DNA from: a virus
Direction: 5' to 3' (one strand)
Length of the DNA: 25,353 bases
Virus record (IMG/VR): IMGVR_UViG_3300027784_000041
Location: 1 to 25,353 of that record
Part shown: in pieces, positions 304-18,496 of the stretch
Layout of the letters: each line of letters begins with the position of its first letter
How positions within the stretch are numbered: position 1 is the first letter of the stretch
Translations under genes and position numbers: made by a program
Notes under the pieces: generated by a model
What the model was told of the DNA's origin: nothing
Database searches by the model: none
What the model saw: only the letters and a program-made list of their open reading frames with translations

Positions 304-1290
304 TTAATCGTCCCATTCTATACCGTCAAAATCAGCTGATAAACTTAAATCTTCTTCTTTATCCTCAATTAATTGTATTGTATAGACGAAAGGATCGTTA
401 TGATAAATACCACCTGTATGAATTTTACCTTCATGCTCAATTTCATAGATATAAACAGCGTCACTTACAAACTTAAATTCAAAATACCCATTTTCATCTG
501 TTGTGAAAGTTTGTTCATGTATATCGGTGTATTTTGATTGCATATATACTTCTACATCATTTAGTAAATTATTATCACTGTCATATACTGTAACTTCTCC
601 TTCTTCTCTCATATCTTCAAATTCAAACTCAGAGTCAAAATTAAACTTTAATTCTTCACTATATAAATTACCTGCCAGTATATTAGCAGTTATTATTTTT
701 TCAATTCTTTTATCATTAAAATAAACATGGATATTAACTTCATCTATACCTTTTTCATCAGCATATTCTAATATATCTTCTGTTTGAATAACTAATAAAT
801 CATTATTTAAATCATATTTTTCGCTATCAATATTTATATATCCTTCAATCTTAATATCTAATATTTCTTTTGCGTCATTAAATGTAACTATAAATTCTTT
901 TTCTACAACATTCTCATAAATATCGAAATTAATAGGATCTATTGTTGGCATTTCGTACCAAAGATTGATAAAATCTTTTATCCAACCTTGAATAATTTCA
1001 AAATCTCTAGCTGTCATTAATCTCTTAATTTCCTGTCCAGAACTCCAACTTTGAATTTCTCCTTGAACACCTCTAGTGATTTTCTTTATTTTATTATTAG
1101 ATTCATCTATTTCTTGATATATAATAGTTTCAAAATCTTCATCATCTACTAAAGTAAGTATATTAGGAGGATCAGGAAGAAGACTTACATCATTAACTTC
1201 TGCTTCAGTATCATCCTCACTCATGGAAGAAGTTAATTCAGCAGCTGGACTACCTGCTTGCGGTGAATATATAATATTTGTACTAACCAA
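304..1290 (-). CDS. Tail/baseplate-periphery protein with a C-terminal Ig-like module shared with the subtilase
   Basis: A 328-aa protein. The start is TTG at 1290, chosen because a GGTGG ribosome binding site lies 8 bases upstream and the preceding gene ends at 1305. Residues 1-90 are low in structure and acidic. Residues about 120-215 look beta-rich. Residues about 215-328 form an Ig-like unit: a strand with an aromatic (FEFEDMREEGEVTVYD), then D-N-N-L-L-N-D-V-E-V, then the turn T-T-D-E-N-G-Y-F-E-F typical of carboxypeptidase-regulatory-like or invasin-type beta domains. It ends with EEDLSLSADFDGIEWDD, which resembles the last residues of the protease at 2711-5923. I infer a virion-surface or fibre-associated role from that shared module and position; no enzyme motif is visible. 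Confidence 0.6.
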   Translation of the reverse strand: MVSTNIIYSPQAGSPAAELTSSMSEDDTEAEVNDVSLLPDPPNILTLVDDEDFETIIYQEIDESNNKIKKITRGVQGEIQSWSSGQEIKRLMTARDFEIIQGWIKDFINLWYEMPTIDPINFDIYENVVEKEFIVTFNDAKEILDIKIEGYINIDSEKYDLNNDLLVIQTEDILEYADEKGIDEVNIHVYFNDKRIEKIITANILAGNLYSEELKFNFDSEFEFEDMREEGEVTVYDSDNNLLNDVEVYMQSKYTDIHEQTFTTDENGYFEFKFVSDAVYIYEIEHEGKIHTGGIYHNDPFVYTIQLIEDKEEDLSLSADFDGIEWDD

Positions 1291-1304: not shown

Positions 1305-1775
1305 TTAAATAGATATATAAAATAGCCCATCTTCATGCCAATTAACTTCAAATCTTCCATTCAAACTTGATCTTTCTTCTTCTAAATCTACGAATAACAT
1401 AAGAGGACTATCATCAATATTTTCATCATCGACCACAAAAATGACCATATAACTGGCAGTTAAAGTTACTTCATCGCCATAAGTTATATTATCTGCTCTA
1501 AAATAAATTTCTTTTTCCTGCTCATCAAAGAATATTTCTTTGTTCTCTAAATCTACAGGAGAATAATGGTCTTCAGGATCATAATCTTCTCTCCCCTCTA
1601 TTTCATGAGTTTTAACATCAAGCCAATATCTGTCAGATTGTTCATGTGTTAAATTTTCATCCATCAAAGCACATCTAACAACAGTATCTACTGCCTGTAA
1701 AGATTCTAATTTTCCATCAAAAACTTTTTCAATAAAACTTCCATATCCATGAATAGTAGCAGTTTCTTCTGCCAT
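1305..1775 (-). CDS. Small phage structural beta-protein (tail/fibre-region family)
   Basis: A 156-aa protein starting at ATG 1775, with an AGGAGG site 9 bases upstream. Its layout matches a family I know from many phage tail and fibre regions: a 'dG...l...DTVvrcALm' start (residues about 20-40), a short 'W-L-D-V-x-T-H-E-I-x-G' segment, an 'FxAD-N-I-T-Y' segment around residue 92, a hydrophobic 'YMVIFVVDD' strand, then P-L-M-L-F-V-D and a closing 'F-E-V-N-W-x-x-D-G-L-F-Y-I' strand. Members are virion structural proteins, usually without known enzymatic activity. No signal peptide or membrane segment is visible. Gaps to both neighbours are short, so it is co-transcribed with the protease cluster. 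The family match is from memory of the pattern, not from a search. Confidence 0.6.
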   Translation of the reverse strand: MAEETATIHGYGSFIEKVFDGKLESLQAVDTVVRCALMDENLTHEQSDRYWLDVKTHEIEGREDYDPEDHYSPVDLENKEIFFDEQEKEIYFRADNITYGDEVTLTASYMVIFVVDDENIDDSPLMLFVDLEEERSSLNGRFEVNWHEDGLFYISI

Positions 1776-1801: not shown

Positions 1802-2242
1802 TTAACAATAACAAATATATGTTTTATCATTATCTTCAGAAAAATTAACTTCGATTTTAGGTTTACAGGGATCAGGACCTTCATCTTCTACTGTTAATTC
1901 AAACCAGTATAATTGAGGATTATTTTCTAACTTTAACAAATGAACTTCCTCAATTATTAAAATTTGTCTTATTACTAAAAATCCTTCGTAATGTAAAGGT
2001 CTATCAAAAGTAACTCCTTTAGTTAAATTTATCCAACTATCTCTATTATCAAAACTTATCTGCATTAATTCAGAGCAATTTTCTGGAATAAAACTTTCCC
2101 AGTTAGGAGTAAGCTTATTAACAAATTCTGAACTAAAATACAGATCAGGTGAATATCTTGTACCCCATATTCTTGCATATTCTTCTATAACATTTATAGG
2201 TTCTTCTTCATATTTTTTAGCAGGCATCCAATCAAAACTCAT
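1802..2242 (-). CDS. Uncharacterised protein of the tail periphery cluster
   Basis: A 146-aa protein. I place the start at ATG 2242 and not at GTG 2251, because the GTG lies inside the AGTAGGTG ribosome binding site that would serve ATG 2242. It begins MSFDWMPAKKY and includes an N-terminal 'EEYARIWGTRYSPDLYFSS' segment, a central 'DRPLHYEGFLVIRQILIIEE' strand region and a Cys-containing end (CKP, then CYC as the last three residues). I recognise no family. It sits directly after the 147-aa Ig-like protein and before a phage structural beta-protein, which suggests a virion component. Confidence 0.55.
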   Translation of the reverse strand: MSFDWMPAKKYEEEPINVIEEYARIWGTRYSPDLYFSSEFVNKLTPNWESFIPENCSELMQISFDNRDSWINLTKGVTFDRPLHYEGFLVIRQILIIEEVHLLKLENNPQLYWFELTVEDEGPDPCKPKIEVNFSEDNDKTYICYC

Positions 2243-2251
2243 GAAAATCAC

Positions 2252-2695
2252 CTACTTAACTTTTATTGAATTTTTATCAGTATCAATTTTTATAACTTTT
2301 TCAACTTTATCTTCTAAAACTTCAATTTCACAAGTATTTTCAAAAATTATATCATTTTCATTGTATTTAAGCTTGCAATCAAAAACACCTGCGTTTCTTA
2401 AATCAAAAATACATTCTCCTTTTTCATCAGTAACCAAAGTATTATCTTCTAAAGTTACATTTACTTTTTCTAAAGGAAAACTTTCTTTATCTATAACTTT
2501 TAGTGTAAGAGTAGGATCTACATTAAAAAATTCATCTTTTTCTAAATTATAATACTTAAAATTTTTATATTTTTCTTCTTGTTCCACAACTACTCCTTTA
2601 GGATTATCAGGTATAGTATAATTTCTTAATTTAATTCTTAAAATATTATCTTTTATAAAGTCTCCTCGTAATTCGACTTTTCTTGATTTTTTCAT
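2252..2695 (-). CDS. Small Ig-like/carboxypeptidase-regulatory-like structural protein
   Basis: A 147-aa protein starting at ATG 2695 with an AAGGAGGG site about 10 bases upstream. The stop at 2252-2254 is ten bases before the next ATG. The N-terminal half is Lys/Glu-rich (MKKSRKVELRGDF). Residues about 70-125 form one beta module: FFNVDPTLTLKVIDKES, then PLEKVNVTLEDN, the turn T-D-E-K-G-E-C-I-F-D-L, then FDCKLKYNEND. This strand-turn-strand plan, with its D-E-K-G turn, is the same plan as the three repeats in the neighbouring protease and the C terminus of the protein at 304-1290. I infer a virion structural or adaptor role. There is no catalytic motif. Confidence 0.6.
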   Translation of the reverse strand: MKKSRKVELRGDFIKDNILRIKLRNYTIPDNPKGVVVEQEEKYKNFKYYNLEKDEFFNVDPTLTLKVIDKESFPLEKVNVTLEDNTLVTDEKGECIFDLRNAGVFDCKLKYNENDIIFENTCEIEVLEDKVEKVIKIDTDKNSIKVK

Positions 2696-2710: not shown

Positions 2711-5700
2711 TTATATTATTTCAACCCATAACATTGAGTCTAAACTAGGATTTAAACTAATTACTTCTTCTCTTGGAAAATTAAAAGTCTTTATTAAAAA
2801 CAAACCTTCCATTCCATAAACAAAAACTTCAGTATGATAAGTTCCATAAGTTTCATGTTCGACTTTCATATCATATGGAGTAGAATAAGCATTTAGAGTA
2901 AATTGTATTTCACCGTTAGAATCAGTTACACCACTGACAGTATCTTGTGTTCCTTGCCCATAAACTGTAATATTTGTATCAGGTATAGGCTGCCCCTCTG
3001 GACTAAGAATTCTAAATAATACATCATGAGTTGTTCCTTCCCATAAAAAATCAAAACTAATAGTTGGAGTTATTTCTTCTTCAAAAGGATCAAAATAATG
3101 CAACTCTACATCCATAGTTCTCTCTAATTCAGGATCAACTATTTCATCATAAATTAAAAATCCCCATTTATTTTCTAAACCTAATTCTGAATGATAAACT
3201 TCTACTCTATACTCACTAGGATACGCATTTATTTCATATAGAGTAACTTGTCCGTTTACATCAGTAACTCCATCTAAAGTTTCCTGATCTATTTGTCCTA
3301 AAAGAGTTAATTCTGCATCGGGAACAATATTGCCTTCTTGATCAAAAACATTGAATGTCACATCATATCTTACATCTTCCCATAACCAATTTAATTCAGG
3401 TTTTAAGGTAATTATTTCTTCTAAGATAGGATGCTCTATATATTGAAAATGAAATACTGCCCCTTCTTCTAGTTGATCCGATAATAACCAAAAATAATCA
3501 GCTTCACCTAACACATGATGATTAATAATAACATTATAATCAGTTGCATAAGGTCTTATTCTAATTTCACCAGTTCCTCCGTCAGATCCAGTAACACGAG
3601 AAACAGTAGGCTGATCGATTTGCCCTACTATTGTAACATGAGCATTTGGAAGTAAATTCCCATCATAATCATAAACAAATATTTCTATACCTACTCTTAG
3701 ATCTTCCCAATCCATATTATTAAATTCTACAAAAATATCCCCTAAATTATCTGAAGGACAATAAGCTTTTCTAGGATGTTCTGCATAATATTTCAACCCT
3801 TCGACTTCATCCTCATAGAAAACTGCAGGAGTCGGCACTGATCTGATAGAATCATCTTCGTATAAAACAGGATATCTTAATCTAACTCCTTCTTCAGGTT
3901 CATCTTCTAAAAGAGGAGTAGGATTACCACTAAAATCGTGTTCTAAATAAACTATTTGTTTTCGATCTAAAGTTTCATAAAATAGATAGATATTCCCTTC
4001 AAAAGTTTCTAAAAATCGAGGATTATATCCATACCCCACACGTCTTAATCCCTCTCCTGTATACGGAGGTTCAAGTACCCAAATTTCAGTATCAACTGCT
4101 CCTGCAGGAATTAACTGGAAAGCTAAAATATATTGCCCTCTTCTATTAAAAATAATAGCAGGATGGCTAGATCCTGTTGGAGACCAAACTATCGGTTGTA
4201 TATTTTTCCAATCCATTCTATCTTCTGTAGCTTGAGCTATTTCTATTTCATAATCTTGACCTCTATAAGTTATCCATAAATTATCATAAAACTCTTTTTC
4301 TTCGCAGGGAGAGACAGGTAATGATATAGAATCTCCTAAATTTTCAGGACCTCCAGAAATATCGATTTGTTCAGGAATTTGTAAAGTATGACTTCTAGTA
4401 ACTAATACTCTAAGGTCTCCTCTTAACCAATCTGCATCAAATTCCTCCCTATATCTATGTCCCATAAAAGACTGTATTTCTGAAATAAGATCAAAATAAT
4501 TAAAATGATAACCTTCTATATTACTAATATTAATTATCATATCTTCTACAGGTATTGGAGGTTCAATAGGAGGTTTTTCTTCTTCAGGTACATCCATAAC
4601 AGTTTCATAGATGTTTAATCTTCCCCACCCCCATCTTATGTCTTTATCTACTTCCTCATCAGATGGTTCGTTTTCTAAATCAAGATGATGATGTTCTCCT
4701 GTATTTCTATATAACCTTTCCATAACCTCTCTAGGAGATAGTTGATAATTATGTCTTAATAACAAAGCACACGCTCCAGCCACATGAGGTCCTGACATAG
4801 AAGTACCACTTAGTCCTGAATAACTTCCATCATCCATAGAAGAATATACATTAACTCCTGGTGCTACTATATCAGGTTTTATATGCTCGTAATTATCATA
4901 ATCATAATCATAGTCATAATCATCTACTTCGTCACCGCCACTAAAATTAGCTACATCTCCCGATGAATTAGTAGCACCTACTCCGATCCCCCAAGGAGTA
5001 TTTCCGGGAGTGCCTGTATTACCTTCTCCATCATTACCTATTGAATTACTTACTACGACTCCTAACTCATATAAAGTTTTAATAGCGTCTCCTACAGAAT
5101 GATTTACTCCAGAAGCACCCCAAGAGTTCTGTACTACATCTATATGGTCTGAATTGTCAGCTATCCATTGTAGCCCTCCAAGTACTTGTTGAAAACTACC
5201 ACCGCCTCCGGGAATTAATGATACGGCAGCTAAAGTAGCTTGAGGAGCCATGCCTATACGATAATTTACATTTCTTCCTAATACTGTTCCTGCTACATGA
5301 GTACCGTGATAATGATTAATATCTCTAGGCTCACTATTTTCTACAACGTTACCTCCACTATCTATCTCAGCCCAATATCCTTCGTGATAAGGAGGTTCTC
5401 CTCCCATTGCCCCTTCTAATTCTTCGTGATCAATTGCCACTCCTGTATCAGCTACACAAACTGTAATTCCCTGACCATAATTTCCCATAGCCCATACATC
5501 TGGAGCTCCAGTTCTTTCTATATGTTCCCAAGTACCTATATCATCTGACATAGATAAAGGGTCAGTCGCTGTTATATGATATTTTTCTTTTTCATCTATA
5601 GTAATTTCTTTTGATTCTTCAATTACTTTAATTTCTGAAAAATTATCTATCTCCTCGACTATAAATACTTTTACCTTTGCTAATATAGTATTAGCTACCC

Positions 5701-5923
5701 AAAAAGATTTATGCCATTTTACATTCCCTAGTTCTTGTTGTTCATCTAAATATCTTTTAACTCTATACTCACAATAATCCGCTTCTTCTCTAAGTCCTTC
5801 TTTAGTAACTTCATAATCTCCATTAGCAAAACTCTTATCTAAATCCTTAAAATCTATAGCAACTTCTATCCAATCTTCATCAGAGAGGTCTTTTATTTTA
5901 TTCTTTAATTCATTTTCTATCAT
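2711..5923 (-). CDS. Subtilisin-like serine protease (family S8) with C-terminal Ig-like repeats, virion-associated candidate
   Basis: A 1070-aa protein starting at ATG 5923. Residues 1-110 resemble an S8 propeptide (inhibitor I9-like; the 'KWHKSFWVANTILAKV' segment is typical) and there is no signal peptide. The catalytic domain spans about 135-445. The triad is visible: Asp159 in V-A-D-T-G-V, His206 in H-G-T-H-V-A-G, Ser375 in G-T-S-M-S-G-P-H-V-A-G. Asn297 (S-I-G-N-D-G) is the likely oxyanion residue, so the enzyme looks intact. A D-Y tandem tract (335-345) interrupts the domain before the KPDIVAPG motif. Residues 460-735 are a beta-rich region I cannot assign. Residues 744-803, 852-911 and 965-1023 are three Ig-like repeats. 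The C terminus ends EEVISLNPSLDSMLWVEII. Its place after the baseplate genes suggests a tail appendage that cleaves host-surface protein or matures virion proteins; that role is inference. Confidence 0.9.
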   Translation of the reverse strand: MIENELKNKIKDLSDEDWIEVAIDFKDLDKSFANGDYEVTKEGLREEADYCEYRVKRYLDEQQELGNVKWHKSFWVANTILAKVKVFIVEEIDNFSEIKVIEESKEITIDEKEKYHITATDPLSMSDDIGTWEHIERTGAPDVWAMGNYGQGITVCVADTGVAIDHEELEGAMGGEPPYHEGYWAEIDSGGNVVENSEPRDINHYHGTHVAGTVLGRNVNYRIGMAPQATLAAVSLIPGGGGSFQQVLGGLQWIADNSDHIDVVQNSWGASGVNHSVGDAIKTLYELGVVVSNSIGNDGEGNTGTPGNTPWGIGVGATNSSGDVANFSGGDEVDDYDYDYDYDNYEHIKPDIVAPGVNVYSSMDDGSYSGLSGTSMSGPHVAGACALLLRHNYQLSPREVMERLYRNTGEHHHLDLENEPSDEEVDKDIRWGWGRLNIYETVMDVPEEEKPPIEPPIPVEDMIINISNIEGYHFNYFDLISEIQSFMGHRYREEFDADWLRGDLRVLVTRSHTLQIPEQIDISGGPENLGDSISLPVSPCEEKEFYDNLWITYRGQDYEIEIAQATEDRMDWKNIQPIVWSPTGSSHPAIIFNRRGQYILAFQLIPAGAVDTEIWVLEPPYTGEGLRRVGYGYNPRFLETFEGNIYLFYETLDRKQIVYLEHDFSGNPTPLLEDEPEEGVRLRYPVLYEDDSIRSVPTPAVFYEDEVEGLKYYAEHPRKAYCPSDNLGDIFVEFNNMDWEDLRVGIEIFVYDYDGNLLPNAHVTIVGQIDQPTVSRVTGSDGGTGEIRIRPYATDYNVIINHHVLGEADYFWLLSDQLEEGAVFHFQYIEHPILEEIITLKPELNWLWEDVRYDVTFNVFDQEGNIVPDAELTLLGQIDQETLDGVTDVNGQVTLYEINAYPSEYRVEVYHSELGLENKWGFLIYDEIVDPELERTMDVELHYFDPFEEEITPTISFDFLWEGTTHDVLFRILSPEGQPIPDTNITVYGQGTQDTVSGVTDSNGEIQFTLNAYSTPYDMKVEHETYGTYHTEVFVYGMEGLFLIKTFNFPREEVISLNPSLDSMLWVEII
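2855..3694 (-). repeat. Three diverged Ig-like repeats in the protease C terminus
   Basis: Residues 744-803, 852-911 and 965-1023 of the protease share one plan: a strand ending in F-x-V or F-R-I, then 'xGNxxPDAxxTxxGQxxQxTxxGVTDxNG', then a short strand, 'NAYxxxYxxxxxH'. Between repeats lies a linker with 'E-E-I-x-x-L/T-x-P-x-L/I-x-F/W-x-x-W-E'. The starts are about 108 and 113 residues apart. The repeats have diverged at DNA level. Confidence 0.75.
4889..4921 (-). repeat. Asp-Tyr tandem tract inside the protease catalytic domain
   Basis: Residues 335-345 of the protease alternate Asp and Tyr (DYDYDYDYDNY), coded by near-tandem GAT/TAT and GAC/TAT codon pairs. It is a low-complexity insertion between the S-G-G-D-E-V segment and the conserved KPDIVAPG motif. 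It could expand or contract by replication slippage. Confidence 0.8.
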
Positions 5924-5944
5924 ATTAGATAATACCTCCCCGAA

Positions 5945-6307
5945 TTACATCGTTATTCTAGGAATTTCTACCAATAAATCTATTTCTATCTCATCTTGGA
6001 GTGATTCTATGCTAATAGGAGGATCGAATTCATCAATAGCAACAGCATCTCCAGTAAAATCATCAGAATACAAAGAAATATACCTGAGTGTTACAGGCAA
6101 TTCAGGCATATCGTGATCATTTCCTTTAATAATTAAATTTAATTCGATTAGCTGTTCTCCTTCTCTTTCGTTGAATTGCAAACGATAATCCTCTGGAAAT
6201 AGTTTAATTATTTCCTGCTCATTCTCATCTTTTAACCTAACATATTTCCAAGAAGCAAATATTTTTTCTTTTATAAATTTATACCCTTGAGGTGTAATTT
6301 CTGGCAA
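5945..6307 (-). CDS. Small phage tail/fibre-region structural protein
   Basis: A 120-aa protein starting at TTG 6307, with GAGG 9 bases upstream. It opens 'MPEITPQGYKFIKEKIF-SW-KYVRL', a layout I associate with small phage tail-fibre or baseplate-periphery proteins ('Lt..G..f...k....w.yv.l'). It continues with alternating strands (QLIELNLIIKG, LPVTLRYISLY) and ends with an acidic strand pair (DEIEIDLLVEIPRI). No Cys, no membrane segment and no enzyme motif are visible. It lies between the 50-aa gene and the protease and is closely spaced with both, so it may help mount the protease on the baseplate; this is inference. Confidence 0.6.
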   Translation of the reverse strand: MPEITPQGYKFIKEKIFASWKYVRLKDENEQEIIKLFPEDYRLQFNEREGEQLIELNLIIKGNDHDMPELPVTLRYISLYSDDFTGDAVAIDEFDPPISIESLQDEIEIDLLVEIPRITM

Positions 6308-6319
6308 CTAAGATCACCT

Positions 6320-6472
6320 CTATTCCTTATTTTCTAACTTATCAAAAATTTTATCTAACTCTTTAATAAACAATTCTCCAATTTCAGAATCTAACATAAC
6401 TTCTTTTTCAGGCTTATCACTTTCAACAGAAAAATTACATTTTTTCACATTAATATTGACATCTTTTGACAT
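6320..6472 (-). CDS. Short uncharacterised acidic protein (50 aa)
   Basis: A short open frame from ATG 6472 to TAG 6320 codes for 50 residues. The start follows AAGGAGG with 7-base spacing, among the best ribosome binding sites in the window. The TAG is followed by the GAGGTGAT site of the next gene, so it fits the operon's spacing. The protein reads MSKDVNINVKKCNF at its start, then an acidic middle (ESDKPEKEVMLDSE) and a predicted amphipathic helix (IGELFIKELDKIFDKLENKE) at the end. I recognise no family. It fills what would otherwise be a 182-base gap between the gp25-like gene and the next structural gene. A small adaptor or assembly factor is possible. Confidence 0.7.
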   Translation of the reverse strand: MSKDVNINVKKCNFSVESDKPEKEVMLDSEIGELFIKELDKIFDKLENKE

Positions 6473-6489
6473 TTCATCTCCTCCTTAAC

Positions 6490-6924
6490 TTATTCTAACC
6501 CCGGAAAATCTCTAGGCTCAGTTCTATAAGGATATACATATGAAGCTTTTATATTTGACTTACTAATAAGATAAGATATATAAATATAAGCTGTATGAGG
6601 TGGAACTTCATCAGGATAACTTTGATGAGTTTTAATATCAACATTAGTAATTTCTATACGAGGCTCCCAATGTTCCAATGCTTGTAAAGTATAGATAGCT
6701 AATTGATCAGCTAAAAAATCATCATTAGGATCAAAAATAACTCTATATAAATCAGATCCATACTCAGGCTGAAGAACTCTTTCTCCTTTTCTAGTTGACA
6801 ATATATCGTGTATACTTTGATTAATCTTATCAACCCCATCTAAAACAGCTGTCCTTTTAGTTGCTAAAGAAAACATATTAGGAAATCTTATCCCTGTACC
6901 TACATCCATAGTTCTTTCTGGCAT
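6490..6924 (-). CDS. Baseplate wedge protein, gp25/W-like
   Basis: A 144-aa protein of the T4 gp25 / P2 W family, which forms the core of the baseplate wedge and helps trigger sheath polymerisation and contraction. Diagnostic features: 'STRKGERVLQPEYGSDLYRVIF' (residues 43-64, written here as the conserved R-x-G-E-R and P-x-Y-G-x-x-L elements), the hydrophobic helix 'LADQLAIYTLQALEHW', and the conserved E-P-R core in WEPRI (86-90) followed by an I-T-N-V strand. The length is usual for the family. The start is ATG 6924 after AGAGGTGATTA. It follows PAAR and spike genes, as in many contractile systems. A gp6/J-like gene normally comes next but is not seen here. Confidence 0.9.
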   Translation of the reverse strand: MPERTMDVGTGIRFPNMFSLATKRTAVLDGVDKINQSIHDILSTRKGERVLQPEYGSDLYRVIFDPNDDFLADQLAIYTLQALEHWEPRIEITNVDIKTHQSYPDEVPPHTAYIYISYLISKSNIKASYVYPYRTEPRDFPGLE

Positions 6925-6937
6925 TAATTATCACCTC

Positions 6938-7264
6938 TTAATTCGCTATTACATTTCCTGATCCGTCAACATCTGCCCCTACTGCTCCACACATATTACA
7001 AATATTCTCATCCCCGATTCTTACCACAGGTAAATTATTAACAAATACATTAGGAGACCCTTCTACATTAGTATAAACTGCATTACAAACACAATTAGTT
7101 AACCCTTGATCAGTTTCTCTAACTGTAGCTAGACCGTTAGTAAATACATCAGGAGAATAAGATAAAAGTTGGACTCCTGCTCTTGCTACAGTAGAAGGAG
7201 GATCTATACAGGGCTGATAACAACTACCTGCTTCAGCATCTCCATATCTTACTACTCCCGGCAT
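6938..7264 (-). CDS. PAAR-like spike tip protein with Cys but no His
   Basis: A 108-aa PAAR-repeat-like protein. PAAR proteins form a sharp metal-bound cone on the trimeric spike and pierce the host envelope. Visible motifs are two copies of the 'S-P-x-V-F-x-N-x-L-x-x-V-R' element (residues about 37-49 and 70-82) with G-D after the second, and a final 'G-S-G-N-V-I' copy. Six cysteines are present (15, 19, 58, 60, 89, 92) and no histidine at all, whereas characterised PAAR tips bind zinc mostly through His plus Cys. An all-Cys metal site is therefore possible. The start is ATG 7264 after AAAGGAGTG. It sits directly downstream of the gp5-like spike gene, as expected for its partner. Confidence 0.85.
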   Translation of the reverse strand: MPGVVRYGDAEAGSCYQPCIDPPSTVARAGVQLLSYSPDVFTNGLATVRETDQGLTNCVCNAVYTNVEGSPNVFVNNLPVVRIGDENICNMCGAVGADVDGSGNVIAN

Positions 7265-7279
7265 AAATAATCACTCCTT

Positions 7280-8569
7280 TTAATCAACAAATCTTTCTGG
7301 CAATTCGTCAGACCATGTAGTGTTATCAGATGGGGGTTCATAATCAAAAAATTCCCCTCCATAGGGAGAGGAAGTTCCAGAATTCAAATGAATATTAGGA
7401 GCATCAGTATTAAAGTTACCTCCTGCCATATTATTCATTTCTCCCCCTGATTGCCTATTAAATTCTCCACTGGCACTCATCTCTAAATCTCCTCCGTCTG
7501 CTGTTATGTTCATTTCATCATCTGTATGAATTCTTATTCTATCAATAGATTGGATTTCAGTTTCACCTGTAGCATATTGAAGTATATCATCGGTCATTTC
7601 TTGACGTGATATCTCTTCCCCACCTTCAACTACAACTAGCTCCAATTTAGGTTCTATAGCGTCTGCATAAATATATACTCTATTATCTAATTCTTCATCC
7701 TCAGCTAACAACATATAATTAACATTACTTTCACCAGAATTCATTTCAAATGCTACTCTTCTATCATCATCCTTGTGATAATTATGAGAAACTATCTCTA
7801 TTCTTTCTTTACCATACTCAGCTACAGTTCTGATTAACTGGCCAGCTAAATCCCTTAAAAACATAATAGCTGTAGATTGAAAAGATTCGTCTTCATAATC
7901 AAATTGATCTTCTTGATAGCCTGGTTCAGTAGATTTTATCCCTCTTTGAAATGATTCATCTCCTGTATGATTTTCATCCCACAAGATAGGACTTATAAAT
8001 TTTATTGCCTGTCCAGCCCTATCTATTATCGTAAAAGATTCTTTTTCGTCTTTATCTTCACTATATATCGTATGTCCTTTTAAAGATTTATACAGAACAC
8101 TTTTCGTTGGAATATGATCTTCTCTACCTTCTCTAGCGTCTTTAGGCACTTCATTTTCTCCAACAGGAGCATCCCATTGTCCTGCTGGTATATCATCAGG
8201 TACTGGAAGTTCTTGTCTAGGATCTAAACATCCAAAAGTATGGGCTACTTCACTTTCTGTACCGTGAACTCCTCCCATATAAACTGGTCTTTCTATATCT
8301 CCTGTTTCAAACATAACATACACAATTGATCCTACTGGAGGAACTTGAGAATCCCCTATATCATATCCTGCAAATACAGTACATCTCCTAGCCCACGGGA
8401 GGTCTCTTATTTTAAAATATTCATCTTCTTCATCAAATTCAGGTATCCCATGAAATTTAGGCACTCTAACTTTAACTCTATCTATTTCCAGAGGATCATT
8501 TATATATTCAACTCTTGCTCTATAGAGTCCTGGAATTTTTTCTTTTTTCTTATAGTCTTCAGGTCTCAT
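7280..8569 (-). CDS. Baseplate central spike, gp5/VgrG-C-like (OB fold plus beta-helix, no lysozyme insert)
   Basis: A 429-aa spike protein. Residues about 12-103 form the OB-fold domain of gp5/VgrG proteins: 'GLYRARVEYINDPLEIDRVKVRVP', then 'PWARRC', 'PPVGSIVYVMFETGD' and 'RPVYMGGVHG' (conserved elements only). A middle beta-rich region follows. Residues about 335-400 have short alternating repeats (IQSIDRIRIHTDDEMNITADG, then GG-x-x-N-M-A-G-G-N-F-N) typical of the trimeric beta-helix needle. Unlike T4 gp5 there is no lysozyme domain between OB fold and needle; a muralytic domain is found in the tape measure instead. The start is ATG 8569 after AGGAGGATAGT. It is flanked by the gp27-like hub gene and the PAAR tip gene, matching assembly order. 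Confidence 0.9.
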   Translation of the reverse strand: MRPEDYKKKEKIPGLYRARVEYINDPLEIDRVKVRVPKFHGIPEFDEEDEYFKIRDLPWARRCTVFAGYDIGDSQVPPVGSIVYVMFETGDIERPVYMGGVHGTESEVAHTFGCLDPRQELPVPDDIPAGQWDAPVGENEVPKDAREGREDHIPTKSVLYKSLKGHTIYSEDKDEKESFTIIDRAGQAIKFISPILWDENHTGDESFQRGIKSTEPGYQEDQFDYEDESFQSTAIMFLRDLAGQLIRTVAEYGKERIEIVSHNYHKDDDRRVAFEMNSGESNVNYMLLAEDEELDNRVYIYADAIEPKLELVVVEGGEEISRQEMTDDILQYATGETEIQSIDRIRIHTDDEMNITADGGDLEMSASGEFNRQSGGEMNNMAGGNFNTDAPNIHLNSGTSSPYGGEFFDYEPPSDNTTWSDELPERFVD

Positions 8570-10721: not shown

Positions 10722-13700
10722 TTAAAACTCACTAACTCTACCTAATAAAGGATGTTTTCCTCTTTCTCTATGGTCTCTAGAAACTTTCTTTCTTATTTCT
10801 TCTCTATCATCTGTATCTTTAATATTATCAAGCTTATCAATAATCTTATCAGCAGATTTCTCTACTGCATTAACAACATCTTCATTATCACTTATCACAT
10901 AAGGACGTTTTTGATCAGAAAAATCAGTACGTGCTGTTCTGCCTCTGTCTGGACTTACAACTGACTGTGCTCTAGCAATTACCGTTCCTATTTTATCAAG
11001 AGGAATAACAGCTTCAGGCTTATGTTCAGCAATAGATGCTAATACAGGTTTCATAGCAATTCCGCCTGTGTATAATCCTACAGCACCTCTTCTGCCTCCT
11101 CCTTCTGCATCCTGTAACATTGCTAGAACTTTCTGTTCTTCTCTACCAAATCTATCTACCACAGCTTGTCTTACTTCAGGACTTGCACTACCAAACCAAG
11201 CCATTCCCTCATCTCTGCCTCTTTCAGCATAAACTCTGCTAATTATAGTAGCGTCATCCATACTAGGATCTATACGAGCATTCTCAAATACTCTTTGAGC
11301 ACCTGCTGCCCCATGTTGTACTGCAGTTGACCATACTGTTTCTTGTAAAGCGTCCGATCTAGACATTACATCTAAACCTATTGATTTTCCTATTCTATCT
11401 ACTGCTGGAGCAAAATGTGACTTTTCTATAAATGCTCTCTGCATTTGACCAAAATCATATCTAGGAGATTCTGCTAACATTGTCCAAACTTCATCAAATG
11501 CTTGAGATCCTATTGTATGTTCTTTTAACATACCTGCTACTTCAGGTGCTTCTCCTTCTAAGAAATTAAGAAAAGTGTCCATAGTACCAGTTTCAGTAGC
11601 AATTTGGTAAGTTCCGTAGGATTTGCCTCCAATATCCCCTGCAGTATCTGCTATCGTACCTGCTCCTCTGCCAGATGACTCAAAATGCTCAGCAACAGAT
11701 CCAATATGAGGAGCAGCACCTGTATAAGTTTCTATTTGTTGTTCTGTTGTAGAAACAGTACCTCCTCTGCCACTAGGACCTCCAGTAGGAGGAGGTGTTC
11801 CTCTAGAAACATCTGCAGTAGAAGGAGCATCCGGCATTTCATCGCTATCATCAAAAAATCTTCCTATAATAGGAATATCAGCTACACCCGGTGTTTCTAT
11901 ATCTAAATCAAATCCTTCTGTCCACCATCTATATAAAGTACCTATCACAGGGATTTCTTCTATATCAGGAAATCTAAACTCTAAACCTAATCCTTCTGTC
12001 ATCCATCCATAAATAACCCCAACTACCGGAACATCTTCAATATCAGGAAAATCAAAATCTAGCCCTACACCTAACTCTCTCCATTTATTAAGAGCACTAA
12101 GCAAAGGAATATCGTCTATAGATAACTGTCTCCATTTATTAATAGTTCCTAATAAAGGTATATCATCTATCGTTAGCTCTCGCCATCTATCGATTAAATC
12201 TATAAGAGGAATATCTTCTCTTTCTATACCGAGTATTTCCCCCCAATCTCCTATAGAAGTCATAGCTAATTCTCCTACAGTTCTAAGAATTCCCCCTAAA
12301 GTTCTTCCTAATAAAGAAATTGGAGCTAAAAATCTTCTTGCTCTATCAATTAAAGGATCTAACCTTTCTCTCATTTCTTCCCAATTATCAGCTATCCAAA
12401 CAGAAATTTCTGCTACAGCATAAAAAGGAGCAGTAACTAATTGGAGTACGGCTGGTAAGTCATGCCACTTCTCAGTTATAAATGTATTTAAATCGTAGAA
12501 CATTCCTCCTAGCCAACTTAAAGCTCCTCCAATTTTTTCTACAGTCCAATCCCATCCTTTATAAATTGCCATTGCTCCTCCTAAGACTGCTAATACTGGA
12601 GCAGCTTTAACCCCTAATACTCCTGCCAATATACCTCCTGTTTTCTTAGCACCTACAGCAATACCTCCTTTTCCTCCTAAAAATCCTGCTACAGTTGCTA
12701 ATCCTCCCCCTATCTTACCTAAGAGAGCAGGAATTTTAAGCATTTTAAATACAATAGCAAATTTCAATATATCATCTAAACCTACATTTAATCTAGCTAG
12801 TTCATCAAATATATCAGAAATAATAGGAGTAGCCATAGCCATATTCTTAAGCTGATTAGTTATTCCTCCCAACATTCCTTCAGTTCTCATTCCTTCTTCA
12901 AGCATATATTCATGCCAATCAGTATGCTCTTTAATGGCTTCATTAGAAGATCTTATAGATTCTTCAAATCCTTCTTGAGTTAACCTACCAGTTCTAATAC
13001 TTTCTATAGTAGACTCAGGAATTTGCATTTCTTCTCCTAATGCTCTTAATAATTCTATTTGACCTTGATCTGCATATCTTTCAAGTTCTCCAAAAATTTG
13101 TATCATTGCTTCATCAAATTCTCCATGTTCAATATATCTTTGAATTTCTTCTAAAGTTATACCTTCCATTCTAGCCATTAGTTCTCGTGCTTCTCTTCCA
13201 CCTTTCATAAGAGTACCGAATAAATCTTCAAATGCTCCTACATCTTCTACTCCAGCTGCCCTTAATCCTCCTAATGTTCTAGTTATGGCTAACATTTGTT
13301 CCTCAAATTCTTCAGCAGAATCTACATTCCCCTGAACTATTTCTCCTAAACCTTCAAATATTTGCCATCCTTCTTCATGTACCTCGATTCCTTCTTTAGC
13401 CATAGCACCTAAAGCTGAAGAAAATCTTTCTACTACTTCTCTTCCTTCATCATATTCATCTATTAAATGTATAATTTCTCTAGTAGCTACATCAGCTACG
13501 TCTCCATGAACTTTTTGTAACTCCATTAAAGTTAAAGTTATTTCTTCCCTGCTAGCTTGAGAAACTTCTATACCAGTTTCCTCTAATCTTCTCCAAGCAT
13601 CAACCATATCTTGAAGTACAAACATCCTGAAACCTCTAGCACCTTCATATTCTTCATCAAGATAAGCAAAATACATATCTCTCATATCTCTTCTTGCATC

Positions 13701-14438
13701 AACATATTCTTCCCATCCTAATCCCATTCTTCGTTGTATATCGTCCTCAACTTCTCTGATTCCCATTATACCTTCCGAAGCAGTTTCTTCTATTAATCCT
13801 CGTATTTGGGCACTTTCCATTAAACCTAATATACCTAAGAATCCTGTTTGGGCTTGATCAAACCAACTATCGCTAGCCTGTCCCGCCCCCCGAAAAGCAG
13901 ACCTAGCATTTCTTTCCATTTGATCAAAAGATTTTTCTGAAGTTTCTTCATATTCTTCCCATTGTTCAGTTCTTTCTTCTATTCTTTCTTTAATCATTTC
14001 ATCGAATTCTTCAACCATTTCCGTCATATCTTCTTCTATAAATCTTTGAATATTTTCTCTTAAATGCTCATCAATATAGTTATCAAAATCCTCTCCACCT
14101 TTTTCAAATTCCTCAGCAAAATGAATACCTTCACCAAACTTACTAAATTGTTTAGAAGAAGGTCTAGAGGAGGGATCTGTTCCTTCTAATTTACGAGATA
14201 TGTTACTTAATGCATCTATAGTTTCTTTATGTTTATCTCCTAAACCGGATGCTTCAGATAAAGTTCTCTCTGCTCTTCTAAAGAAGTTCTGCAATTGCCT
14301 AGGTCTAACTCTTCTATAAAATTGTTGAGCAGATTCATTTATTTCATCTAAAGGACTTATTGCCTTTTTGATAAAAGTAAAAGCACCCATTACATTAGCT
14401 TCTAATTGATTAAGTTGATCAATCTGATTATTTATCAA
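10722..14438 (-). CDS. Tail tape measure protein with embedded lysozyme-like domain
   Basis: A 1238-aa tape measure, which sets tail length and is ejected ahead of the DNA. The start is TTG 14438 with GGAGG 9 bases upstream. Residues 1-550 are mostly charged helix and coiled coil. A hydrophobic Gly/Ala-rich region at about 555-690 is typical of segments that enter the membrane. Residues 741-862 hold six short repeats (separate entry). After a Pro/Gly linker (880-895), residues about 905-1115 look like a lysozyme-like domain: 'EHFESSGRGAGT' with candidate catalytic Glu920, then 'G-D-I-G-G-K-S-Y-G-T-Y-Q-I' (935-946) and further helices. Residues 1125-1150 (GGIAMKPVLASIAEH, then PEAVIPL) match the conserved C-terminal motif of tape measures. 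It is the largest gene here and follows the chaperone pair, as expected. The lysozyme assignment is by motif memory. Confidence 0.9.
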   Translation of the reverse strand: MINNQIDQLNQLEANVMGAFTFIKKAISPLDEINESAQQFYRRVRPRQLQNFFRRAERTLSEASGLGDKHKETIDALSNISRKLEGTDPSSRPSSKQFSKFGEGIHFAEEFEKGGEDFDNYIDEHLRENIQRFIEEDMTEMVEEFDEMIKERIEERTEQWEEYEETSEKSFDQMERNARSAFRGAGQASDSWFDQAQTGFLGILGLMESAQIRGLIEETASEGIMGIREVEDDIQRRMGLGWEEYVDARRDMRDMYFAYLDEEYEGARGFRMFVLQDMVDAWRRLEETGIEVSQASREEITLTLMELQKVHGDVADVATREIIHLIDEYDEGREVVERFSSALGAMAKEGIEVHEEGWQIFEGLGEIVQGNVDSAEEFEEQMLAITRTLGGLRAAGVEDVGAFEDLFGTLMKGGREARELMARMEGITLEEIQRYIEHGEFDEAMIQIFGELERYADQGQIELLRALGEEMQIPESTIESIRTGRLTQEGFEESIRSSNEAIKEHTDWHEYMLEEGMRTEGMLGGITNQLKNMAMATPIISDIFDELARLNVGLDDILKFAIVFKMLKIPALLGKIGGGLATVAGFLGGKGGIAVGAKKTGGILAGVLGVKAAPVLAVLGGAMAIYKGWDWTVEKIGGALSWLGGMFYDLNTFITEKWHDLPAVLQLVTAPFYAVAEISVWIADNWEEMRERLDPLIDRARRFLAPISLLGRTLGGILRTVGELAMTSIGDWGEILGIEREDIPLIDLIDRWRELTIDDIPLLGTINKWRQLSIDDIPLLSALNKWRELGVGLDFDFPDIEDVPVVGVIYGWMTEGLGLEFRFPDIEEIPVIGTLYRWWTEGFDLDIETPGVADIPIIGRFFDDSDEMPDAPSTADVSRGTPPPTGGPSGRGGTVSTTEQQIETYTGAAPHIGSVAEHFESSGRGAGTIADTAGDIGGKSYGTYQIATETGTMDTFLNFLEGEAPEVAGMLKEHTIGSQAFDEVWTMLAESPRYDFGQMQRAFIEKSHFAPAVDRIGKSIGLDVMSRSDALQETVWSTAVQHGAAGAQRVFENARIDPSMDDATIISRVYAERGRDEGMAWFGSASPEVRQAVVDRFGREEQKVLAMLQDAEGGGRRGAVGLYTGGIAMKPVLASIAEHKPEAVIPLDKIGTVIARAQSVVSPDRGRTARTDFSDQKRPYVISDNEDVVNAVEKSADKIIDKLDNIKDTDDREEIRKKVSRDHRERGKHPLLGRVSEF
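11853..12218 (-). repeat. Six-copy repeat array in the tape measure, periods 17 and 26 residues
   Basis: The core [DE]-[IV]-P-[LVI]-[LIV]-x-x-[LI]-x-x-W occurs at residues 741 (EDIPLIDLIDRW), 758 (DDIPLLGTINKW), 775 (DDIPLLSALNKW), 801 (EDVPVVGVIYGW), 827 (EEIPVIGTLYRW) and 853 (ADIPIIGRFF). Start-to-start spacing is exactly 17, 17, 26, 26, 26. The longer units add a G-x-x-L-x-F-x-F-P-D-I-type spacer. Confidence 0.9.
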
Positions 14439-15952: not shown

Positions 15953-18496
15953 TTAACTACTTTCAGGGAACTCAGCTCCAGTAGGATGAATTACAAAATC
16001 TATAGGAATAAATTCTGCTGATCTTGTAGGTTTAATATGAACTTTACCTGGCATTCTATTCTGATCAATATCATAATCTGTTACTACTTCCTCATCCATC
16101 TGTACGAAGAAGTCATACAGCCCTCTTGCTCTTTTAATAGATTCAAGATAAGGCTCAACTAACCCTCTCCAAGAATTCCATGTAAATTCGTCATTCGGCT
16201 CAAAAACAACATACCTTGTAGATCCAGCAATAACTCTTCTCATAACTAGAAGTAACCTTCTCACATTAACTCTATCAAGAGCAGTAGGTTGTCTTTGAAG
16301 TGTTCTTTGCCCCCAGATAGTGATACCGTCTTGTGGGAAGTTAACTATAGGATTAACAGCATTTCCTCCAGAATACATAAAGTCTCTATCTCCCTGATTA
16401 GGACTAGTTTCAAGATCAAGAGCTCTGATTAAACGACCTCTTTTCAGTCCAGCAGGTGCAAACCACGGATAAGATACTCTATCGTTTCTAGCATATTGGG
16501 CAGCTGCATATCCACTAGGTGGTACCCATCTTTCAGTTCTCTCAAATTGATCTGCCATCTTCAACCACGGCCAGTACATAGTTCCGTAAGAACTATTTAA
16601 AGCCTGAGCAGGATCATCTTCCCCTTCTCCATCTCCATTATGCCATTCAACTACATCTTGAACGTCATATCCAAATGGAGGGTCTATAATTGCAATAGTA
16701 TCTCCTCTAGATTCAGCAATATCTAACATTTCAGTAGCTACAGTTGCTTTAGCTGACATGCCGGGAGCAATCAAGATATTAATTTCGTACCTTTCTACAT
16801 TTCTGAAAAATTGCATTCCTGTAGGAGGCTCCATATCTCCAACTATATCCCAATCTTCAAGATCTTCAGTTCCGTCTACTCCTCCTGTTAATACATAAGT
16901 TCCTTCTTCCAAAACAGTACCTGAACCATCAGATAAATCAACTGCTCTTACATGTCTAGATCCATCTAATTTATCTTCAAAGTAATCATCGCTTTCAGGA
17001 TCTAAATTAACTTCAAACTGTTCAGAATCTGTAGGAGTTACTACACTTATTTTATAAGGTTTATCTTGTTTATCTATTTCTTCAACTACAATTTCAAAAT
17101 CGTTAGCCCAAGTACCGGGAGTTTTAGCTTCAATTTCCATAATTTCAACAGGCTCATCTGATCCTCCTTCAAAATCAACTTCTTCTTCGTTATCTAAAGG
17201 ATCTTCTCCAGTACCAGTATCTTCGGCATTAAATTCTGGTAAATCATCAATTATTGGAGCAACTAAACTAACCTTATTAGCATCATCATCTAATACCACT
17301 TCGTCATTATCTATAGTTGAAGCCAAAGTAATAACTAATTCTGGGTCAGTAAAATCAACATTTACATCATAAGTATCAGGTTCAACTGCTCCTTCAAAGT
17401 CAGCAGTTTCTTCTGAATCTAATGCGTCTTCTCCAGTACCAGAATAATCAGCAGTAAAATCTGACAATTCGCTAATTTCGTCAGCTACTAGTTCAGCAGT
17501 ATTAGCGTCATCATCTAAAGCTATAGTATCTCCATCAAGTTCAGTTGCTAATTCAATAGTTAAAACTTCTGCGTCAAAACTAGCACTTAAATCAGTATCA
17601 TCTGGAACATCTGCTCCATCAAAGCTAACATTTTCTGCTGTATCTAACGATGCTGATCCATCACCAGAATAACTAGCGTCAAATTCTGGCAAACTGCTAA
17701 TTTCTGCTGCTACTAATTCTGCTGTATTATCTTCAGCAACAAGATTTTCTTCGTTATCAGTAGATAACTGCACTGTTAAAATTTCTGTAGCTTCATCAAA
17801 GCTAGCTTCTAAATCTTCTTCTGATCCTCCAGTTAATACTTCTACATTCCAATCGTTTGTATGCTCTCCCACTTCTTCAGCAGTTATTGTTACTTCTCCA
17901 TCAGTTTCTCCTTCATTAAGAACAGCAGTAGCATAATCTGCAGTTTCCCCTAAATTTTCAGGAGTTGTTACTTCAATAGTATAATTATTAGTATGATCTC
18001 CTATTTCATCTGAAGTAACTGTCACTGTCCCATTATCTCCACTGCCAATTTCAGCAGTAGCATACTCTACATTTTCCTCTAAACCAGTAGGAAATTCCAC
18101 TTTAACTACATAATCATTACCTTCTGTACCAAAATCAGCTACTTCAATATCTATTTGTCCATCATCTCCAGAACCTACAGTAGCTGTAGCATGTGCTGTT
18201 TCGTCTCCGTCAGTAACTATCACATCAGCATATTCTTCGTTTCCGTCAGTAACCCTTACGTACCACATCATATTACCTTCCTGTAAGAACTGTATAGCTC
18301 CATAAGTAGCTAGACACTCAGGAGTAGGATCTCCAAATGTTCTAATAAAATTATTTGGACTTGTTATCATTGTCGGTTCATTAACTGGACCCTTTGTAGC
18401 CCCTCCTACTATCCCCAAAGTAGATGTTGACGCTTGGGCTGCATAAGCACTAAAGTCTAATTCTCTTGTTTTTACACCAGGACTTAACATTACCAT
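15953..18496 (-). CDS. Tail sheath protein, gp18-like, with a large acidic repeat insertion
   Basis: An 847-aa sheath subunit; typical sheaths are about 390 to 660 residues. The N terminus 'LSPGVKTRELDFS' and 'STSTLGIVGGATKGPVNEP' is diagnostic, as is the C-terminal part: 'W-V-P-P-S-G-Y-A-A-A-Q-Y-A-R-N-D', 'P-W-F-A-P-A-G', 'I-W-G-Q-R-T-L', 'V-N-V-R-R-L-L-L', 'F-E-P-N-D', and the final 'P-T-R-S-A-E-F-I-P-I-D-F-V' strand involved in subunit linking. Residues about 101-449 are an inserted acidic region of two repeat types with only two Lys (132, 408) and no Arg. Residues 452-470 (EAKTPGTWANDFEIVVEE) return to the usual sheath fold. The start is ATG 18496; ATG 18490 is an alternative. The insertion probably lies on the outer surface of the tail. 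Confidence 0.95.
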   Translation of the reverse strand: MVMLSPGVKTRELDFSAYAAQASTSTLGIVGGATKGPVNEPTMITSPNNFIRTFGDPTPECLATYGAIQFLQEGNMMWYVRVTDGNEEYADVIVTDGDETAHATATVGSGDDGQIDIEVADFGTEGNDYVVKVEFPTGLEENVEYATAEIGSGDNGTVTVTSDEIGDHTNNYTIEVTTPENLGETADYATAVLNEGETDGEVTITAEEVGEHTNDWNVEVLTGGSEEDLEASFDEATEILTVQLSTDNEENLVAEDNTAELVAAEISSLPEFDASYSGDGSASLDTAENVSFDGADVPDDTDLSASFDAEVLTIELATELDGDTIALDDDANTAELVADEISELSDFTADYSGTGEDALDSEETADFEGAVEPDTYDVNVDFTDPELVITLASTIDNDEVVLDDDANKVSLVAPIIDDLPEFNAEDTGTGEDPLDNEEEVDFEGGSDEPVEIMEIEAKTPGTWANDFEIVVEEIDKQDKPYKISVVTPTDSEQFEVNLDPESDDYFEDKLDGSRHVRAVDLSDGSGTVLEEGTYVLTGGVDGTEDLEDWDIVGDMEPPTGMQFFRNVERYEINILIAPGMSAKATVATEMLDIAESRGDTIAIIDPPFGYDVQDVVEWHNGDGEGEDDPAQALNSSYGTMYWPWLKMADQFERTERWVPPSGYAAAQYARNDRVSYPWFAPAGLKRGRLIRALDLETSPNQGDRDFMYSGGNAVNPIVNFPQDGITIWGQRTLQRQPTALDRVNVRRLLLVMRRVIAGSTRYVVFEPNDEFTWNSWRGLVEPYLESIKRARGLYDFFVQMDEEVVTDYDIDQNRMPGKVHIKPTRSAEFIPIDFVIHPTGAEFPESS
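17150..18190 (-). repeat. Two-type repeat array in the tail sheath
   Basis: Type A, period about 43 residues, starts at 103 (ATATVGSGDDG), 146 (ATAEIGSGDNG) and 189 (ATAVLNEGETDG). Each copy has 'T-x-x-N-D/N-Y/W-x-V/I-x-V' later on. Type B, period about 73-75, covers about 229-300, 301-374 and 375-449. Each has 'L-x-A-x-F-D', 'L-D-D-D-A-N-T-A-E-L-V-A-x-E-I-S', 'Y-S-G-T-G-E-D-x-L-D' and 'F-E/D-G-A'. One type B copy (301-374) has about 25 Asp/Glu in 74 residues by my count and no Lys or Arg. Confidence 0.85.

Follow-up and report, generated by a model that had tools for sequence, protein, structure and literature searches.

A subtilisin-like protease encoded among the contractile-tail genes of an uncultured virus may act on host surface proteins

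Why would a virus with a contractile tail encode a subtilisin among its baseplate genes? The gene in question lies in IMG/VR record IMGVR_UViG_3300027784_000041, which was analyzed over its whole length of 25,353 bases (the window) and is probably a genome fragment. Nearly all genes in the window are on the minus strand. A first-pass annotation, made from the sequence alone, had described an intact S8 (subtilisin) protease in a baseplate region and had proposed that the protein is incorporated into the virion.

The open reading frame is indeed intact, with exactly the ends, strand, and length that had been annotated (Table 1). Its product matches Peptidase_S8 from Pfam (E = 1.8e-42). The proposed triad of Asp159, His206, and Ser375, along with the proposed oxyanion residue Asn297, was found at the expected positions, and all four are invariant columns in an alignment of 37 S8 proteins. 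An AF2 model built from this alignment has pLDDT mostly above 90 across the catalytic domain, and its top matches in Foldseek are subtilisins (BPN' and Carlsberg), with E values down to 2.8e-23 and a TM-score of 0.87 when normalized by target length. (A single-sequence AF2 model of the whole protease had a pLDDT of 30 and was left out of the analysis.) The protein combines the subtilisin fold, an Asp-His-Ser triad in the S8 order, and the oxyanion Asn, as members of family S8 do. As judged by sequence and model, the gene encodes an intact S8 protease, and its residues and fold predict that it is catalytic.

Table 1. Features of the protease gene and of the neighboring tail genes (positions in the window)
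Feature	Position	Strand	Basis or remark
S8 (subtilisin) protease gene, 1070 aa, ATG start	2711..5923	-	N-terminal, catalytic, and middle regions plus three Ig-like repeats, as listed below
Propeptide-like N-terminal region, residues 1-128, without signal peptide	5540..5923	-	low-confidence beta-alpha-beta-beta pattern
Catalytic domain, residues 130-440	4604..5536	-	PF00082 at residues 150-408; AF2 and Foldseek
Asp159 codon	5447..5449	-	sequence position and S8 alignment
His206 codon	5306..5308	-	sequence position and S8 alignment
Asn297 (oxyanion) codon	5033..5035	-	sequence position and S8 alignment
Ser375 codon	4799..4801	-	sequence position and S8 alignment
Middle domain, residues 441-725 (285 aa)	3749..4603	-	orphan in relative searches
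Ig-like repeat 1, residues 728-816	3476..3742	-	repeat-module profile
Ig-like repeat 2, residues 834-929	3137..3424	-	repeat-module profile
Ig-like repeat 3, residues 947-1040	2804..3085	-	Pfam and repeat-module profile
Shine-Dalgarno-like GGGGAGGT, upstream of protease ATG	5934..5941	-	
120-aa protein without assigned function, directly upstream of protease	5945..6307	-	
50-aa ORF between gp25 and the 5945-6307 gene	6320..6472	-	
gp25-like baseplate wedge / sheath initiator	6490..6924	-	PF04965, 2.2e-18
PAAR tip protein	6938..7264	-	
gp5/VgrG-like spike (OB domain)	7280..8569	-	
Tape measure protein with T6SS VgrG3-like C-terminal domain	10722-14438 (domain 11136-11705)	-	PF21277, 1.8e-39
147-aa protein without assigned function, downstream of protease	2252..2695	-	
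149-aa protein without assigned function	1802..2251	-	
phrog_644 protein	1305..1775	-	relatives encoded in the tail regions of phages of Xanthomonas and Mycobacterium
Fibre-like protein, final operon gene	304..1290	-	residues 214-303 (382-651) match protease Ig-like repeat

Outside of the catalytic domain, the N-terminal region resembles a propeptide, as had been suggested, by its position and secondary structure; residues 1-129 have pLDDT of about 30-60 in the AF2 model, and Pfam I9 does not match. No signal peptide was found, as the first-pass annotation had claimed: the maximum 12-residue Kyte-Doolittle value in the first 60 amino acids is 0.23, versus 2.2-3.3 in six secreted-type S8 controls. 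The middle domain has no relatives among phages, PDB, or PHROGs. The Ig-like tail was recovered as three C-terminal copies, and Pfam places CarboxypepD_reg and Big_1 domains in this third of the protein. When a profile of the Ig-like module was compared to the open reading frames of 147 sequences (the window and 146 fetched loci), just one further protein matched, which was the fibre-like protein at the end of the same operon (E = 0.0086 in this wide search or 5.9e-6 against nine window proteins). This weak but sole match suggests, at the level of sequence, that the module was exchanged within the tail operon.

Gene order, Pfam matches, and gap sizes place the protease gene inside a cluster of tail, baseplate, and fibre genes. 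From the tape measure gene through the fibre region, the genes form a one-strand operon with intergenic gaps of just 0-26 bp, and the proposed position between gp25 and the fibre-region genes holds, with the refinement that two small genes separate gp25 from the protease. The codon usage of the protease gene matches the rest of the window (GC3 is 14.8%, and the fit is slightly better than expected). Three other features of the region were observed. The sheath protein (15953-18496, minus strand; 847 aa) is long, and its conserved N- and C-terminal parts are separated by a large acidic stretch of repeat-like character. A terminator-like hairpin with 9 pairs and a T run lies inside the gp5-like gene, in the 3' portion of its coding sequence (7352-7373, minus strand). 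Another record, IMGVR_UViG_3300000557_000043, overlaps the window and encodes a 100% identical sheath protein; it extends the window upstream with a head-tail adaptor gene and an HNH/homing endonuclease gene.

We then asked whether S8 genes are found among the tail genes of other phages. A direct scan of viral contigs with the whole protease identified no relatives. A looser search identified S8 proteins from Synechococcus phage Sf-FR1 and from Sinorhizobium phage Phosso. With the Sf-FR1 protein as the query, 43 records from cyanophages and marine viruses were found, and the Phosso protein matched Agrobacterium phage Atu_ph07. In Sf-FR1, S-H38, and S-CREM1, the S8 gene directly follows the gene for the "baseplate wedge subunit and tail pin"; S-WAM2, S-RSM4, and P-SSM2 have it flanked by fibre and virion genes. 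The tail-region subtilase genes of several T4-like cyanophages are often annotated as merely hypothetical or structural. All six proteins examined, four from cyanophages and two from jumbo phages, retain the triad and the Asn, five by alignment and, for S-RSM4, with Asp and His read from the printed sequence (VIVDD and YHGIH). The S8 proteins of Atu_ph07, Phosso, and S-SCSM1 also contain Ig-type or Laminin_G domains. The S8 and Laminin_G protein of S-SCSM1 (gp144) is described in GenBank as "baseplate wedge subunit (virion protein)"; 45 virion proteins of S-SCSM1 were identified by mass spectrometry, and gp144 is not named in the text read (PMC9602691). The genes for most virion proteins of Atu_ph07 are clustered, and CDS 284-329 is one of these clusters (PMC6102473). 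Atu_ph07 gp329, in which an S8 domain is joined to He_PIG Ig domains, lies at the end of this cluster if gp329 is CDS 329, as the numbering of the tail fibre gp327 suggests. The support that these two phages give to a virion location is indirect. We rejected the S8 of MT836178 as a parallel (it has a signal-like N terminus and lies on a contig with cellular-type genes), as well as those of NatCom_34063 and MTATph1, which are not baseplate-adjacent contractile cases. The S8 match in S-TIM54 is weak and partial and was left out as well.

The first-pass annotation had described tail enzymes as usually polysaccharide degrading or muralytic; this is fair for the enzymes that have been described, but a tail-region subtilase is not unique to the window. 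Similar S8 genes in the tail clusters of phages unrelated to this one seem to have been little discussed so far. A literature search for tail- or virion-associated phage proteases found nothing relevant, although absence there is no proof of novelty.

The most likely role, in our view, is that of a tail-borne protease that cuts a host surface protein, and we would give it about an even chance. The protease would be a structural component of the contractile tail that is synthesized, with no signal peptide, in the cytoplasm, and its middle and Ig-like domains would attach it to the baseplate or fibres. The subtilisin domain, on the N-terminal side, would be held inactive by the propeptide until autocleavage. 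At adsorption, it would cut a protein layer or protein receptor of the host surface (candidates include an S-layer, a pilus, a flagellum, and a secreted matrix), and the cut would open the wall to the tail. The muralytic-type domain of the tape measure may act there separately; it gives wall digestion another candidate enzyme. The position of the gene, the intact operon, the lack of a signal peptide, the native codon usage, and the Ig module shared with the fibre-like protein all support a tail component. The earlier proposal is partly supported: incorporation itself, like activation and the host surface substrate, is something we infer, and the S8 genes in the baseplate and fibre regions of other phages, one of whose products is labeled as a virion protein, make it plausible. 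Points that weigh against this role are the lack of relatives of the middle domain, which is the presumed attachment part, and, as described below, the absence of S8 from related tail loci and of baseplate J from its usual place.

In capsids, virion proteins are well known to be matured by proteolysis, and the window protease, whether tail associated or free, might process the virus's own fibre, baseplate, or adhesin proteins, or only itself, with no role at the host surface. Processing of virion proteins had also been named in the first-pass annotation. Its position in the operon and lack of a signal peptide would suit cytoplasmic action on co-expressed fibre proteins. However, a processing enzyme would not need three Ig-like repeats and an extra 285-aa domain, and the tail-region S8s of other phages likewise bear adhesive-type domains (Laminin_G or He_PIG). 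We consider a maturation protease to be rather unlikely.

Another possibility is that the protease is made with the tail operon but does not enter the virion, and instead is freed at lysis and degrades host or matrix proteins, perhaps in the manner of the intracellular-type S8s that Bacillus phages encode. Among the viral contigs recovered, short S8s that lack a signal peptide are common. Also, when the window protease was used as the query, 22 of 50,697 phage records matched, and most of these were Bacillus phages with such proteins, including SP-15 (SP15_260), Goe3 (gp011), and FADO (gp203), whose S8 domains are 26-32% identical to that of the window. However, proteins of this kind have just 300-400 amino acids or so (about 290-380 in these three), with no long propeptide and no Ig tail, and in all three phages, which were examined individually, the gene sits away from the tail genes. 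More broadly, gp25 was present in just 2 of 50 viral records with S8 (SP-15 and Goe3, where it is far from the S8 gene), although many of these records are fragments. In contrast, the window protease is a multidomain protein, and in a tree of 76 S8 domains it lies outside the intracellular-type group, albeit on a long branch. Release at lysis therefore seems quite unlikely to be its role.

The order of propeptide, protease, and adhesin could also mean that catalysis serves only for self-cleavage, which would release or activate a C-terminal Ig-like adhesin as the functional tail part; but an open, subtilisin-type active site with a conserved oxyanion Asn would be expected to act in trans, and no specific cleavage motif was seen, so we regard this as very unlikely.

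Finally, we considered whether the protease gene belongs beside gp25 at all. The order of sheath, tube, hub, tape measure, gp53, gp5, PAAR, and gp25 in the window, together with homology that can be detected between nine of its proteins and proteins of SP-15, identifies an SP-15-like (Thornevirus) tail module. In related loci, the gene for the wedge protein baseplate J directly follows gp25 in 106 of 108 cases and is elsewhere in the other 2. (These are the loci with at least 1.2 kb downstream, out of 118 with a relative of gp25; some are near-duplicate contigs.) In the window, J was not found by Pfam or by phmmer with its relatives; at the site after gp25 (6308-6490), the expected position of J is occupied by the S8 cassette. 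J may lie beyond the end of the contig. Because J is missing from a nearly universal place, an assembly error or an unusual rearrangement is possible. The first-pass annotation had also suggested looking for subtilases next to gp25 in other phages: none of 135 related tail loci contained an S8, although several of these loci are short fragments, so S8 is not a conserved feature of this tail type, and the parallels come from the baseplate and fibre regions of cyanophages and jumbo phages. No other contig matched a 43-base probe that spans the beginning of the protease gene, and no second contig was found to cross the junction. A scan of genome contigs with a gp5 alignment found one locus, from a Bacilli MAG; the protease had no match at E ≤ 1e-25 in 295 genomes of that MAG's phylum, a result that carries no information because no positive control matched either. 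An assembly chimera or a recent cellular insertion, which the absence of J, the single contig, and secreted types with signal-like N termini among the nearest S8s in the tree would fit, is highly improbable given that the genes from gp25 to the protease are all intact, with their own ribosome-binding sites and gaps of 12-21 bp, and given the codon usage, the shared Ig module, and the lack of a signal peptide.

In the tree, the window S8 has a long branch, which makes its placement uncertain, and its neighbors are S8s with signal-like N termini that are encoded on viral contigs (support of 98/87 for four rows). It is separate not only from the intracellular phage type but also from the cyanophage group and from the pair of Atu_ph07 and Phosso; the four cyanophage proteins form their own branch without it (100/100 support). 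Since the window S8 groups with neither the cyanophage nor the jumbo-phage set, the simplest reading of these sequences is that it was probably acquired independently.

How contractile phages pass through proteinaceous surface layers is of broader interest: the S-layer-penetrating phage phiCD508 reportedly has no enzymatic domains for S-layer passage (PMC11948020). A virion-borne protease, if confirmed, would directly explain such passage in some phages. We tentatively propose, with somewhat less than even confidence, that tail-borne subtilases are recurrent phage entry enzymes, a proteolytic counterpart of tailspike depolymerases. Cyanophages, Rak2-like jumbo phages, and the SP-15-like phage in the window would each have acquired such an enzyme separately and fused S8 to adhesive domains to breach protein surface layers. 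Because cultured cyanophages and Atu_ph07 have parallel S8 genes, this idea can be tested now, without the uncultured virus.

Among known systems, the Thornevirus tail modules of Bacillus phage SP-15 and Listeria phage LIS04 have their genes in the same order as the window from the sheath to gp25, but they continue with baseplate J right after gp25 and contain no S8, whereas the window has the S8 cassette instead. The best PHROG match of the window protein is phrog_3677, "protease" (1.6e-47, residues 87-423), which includes the vir520 S8 of a Methanofastidiosa virus; that gene, however, lies among hypothetical genes upstream of terminase and not in a baseplate operon. The Rak2-like jumbo phage proteins (Atu_ph07 gp329 and that of Phosso) are also large, at about 1250-1290 amino acids, with an Ig-type (He_PIG) C terminus, and their genes adjoin tail fibre or minor tail genes; they differ in their branch of the tree, in having He_PIG rather than Big_1/CarboxypepD_reg-like repeats, and in their middle region. 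The tail S8s of T4-like cyanophages (T4-GC_292, with PSSM2_297 of P-SSM2 and S-MbCM7_177; also SfFR1_192 of Sf-FR1, S-RSM4_039, and S-SCSM1 gp144) lack repeats of the window type and belong to T4-like phages rather than to SP-15-like tails. Nevertheless, they share with the window protease an intact triad, a propeptide-like N-terminal region with no signal peptide seen in the sequence, and a place in a contractile phage between the baseplate or tail-pin genes and the fibre genes.
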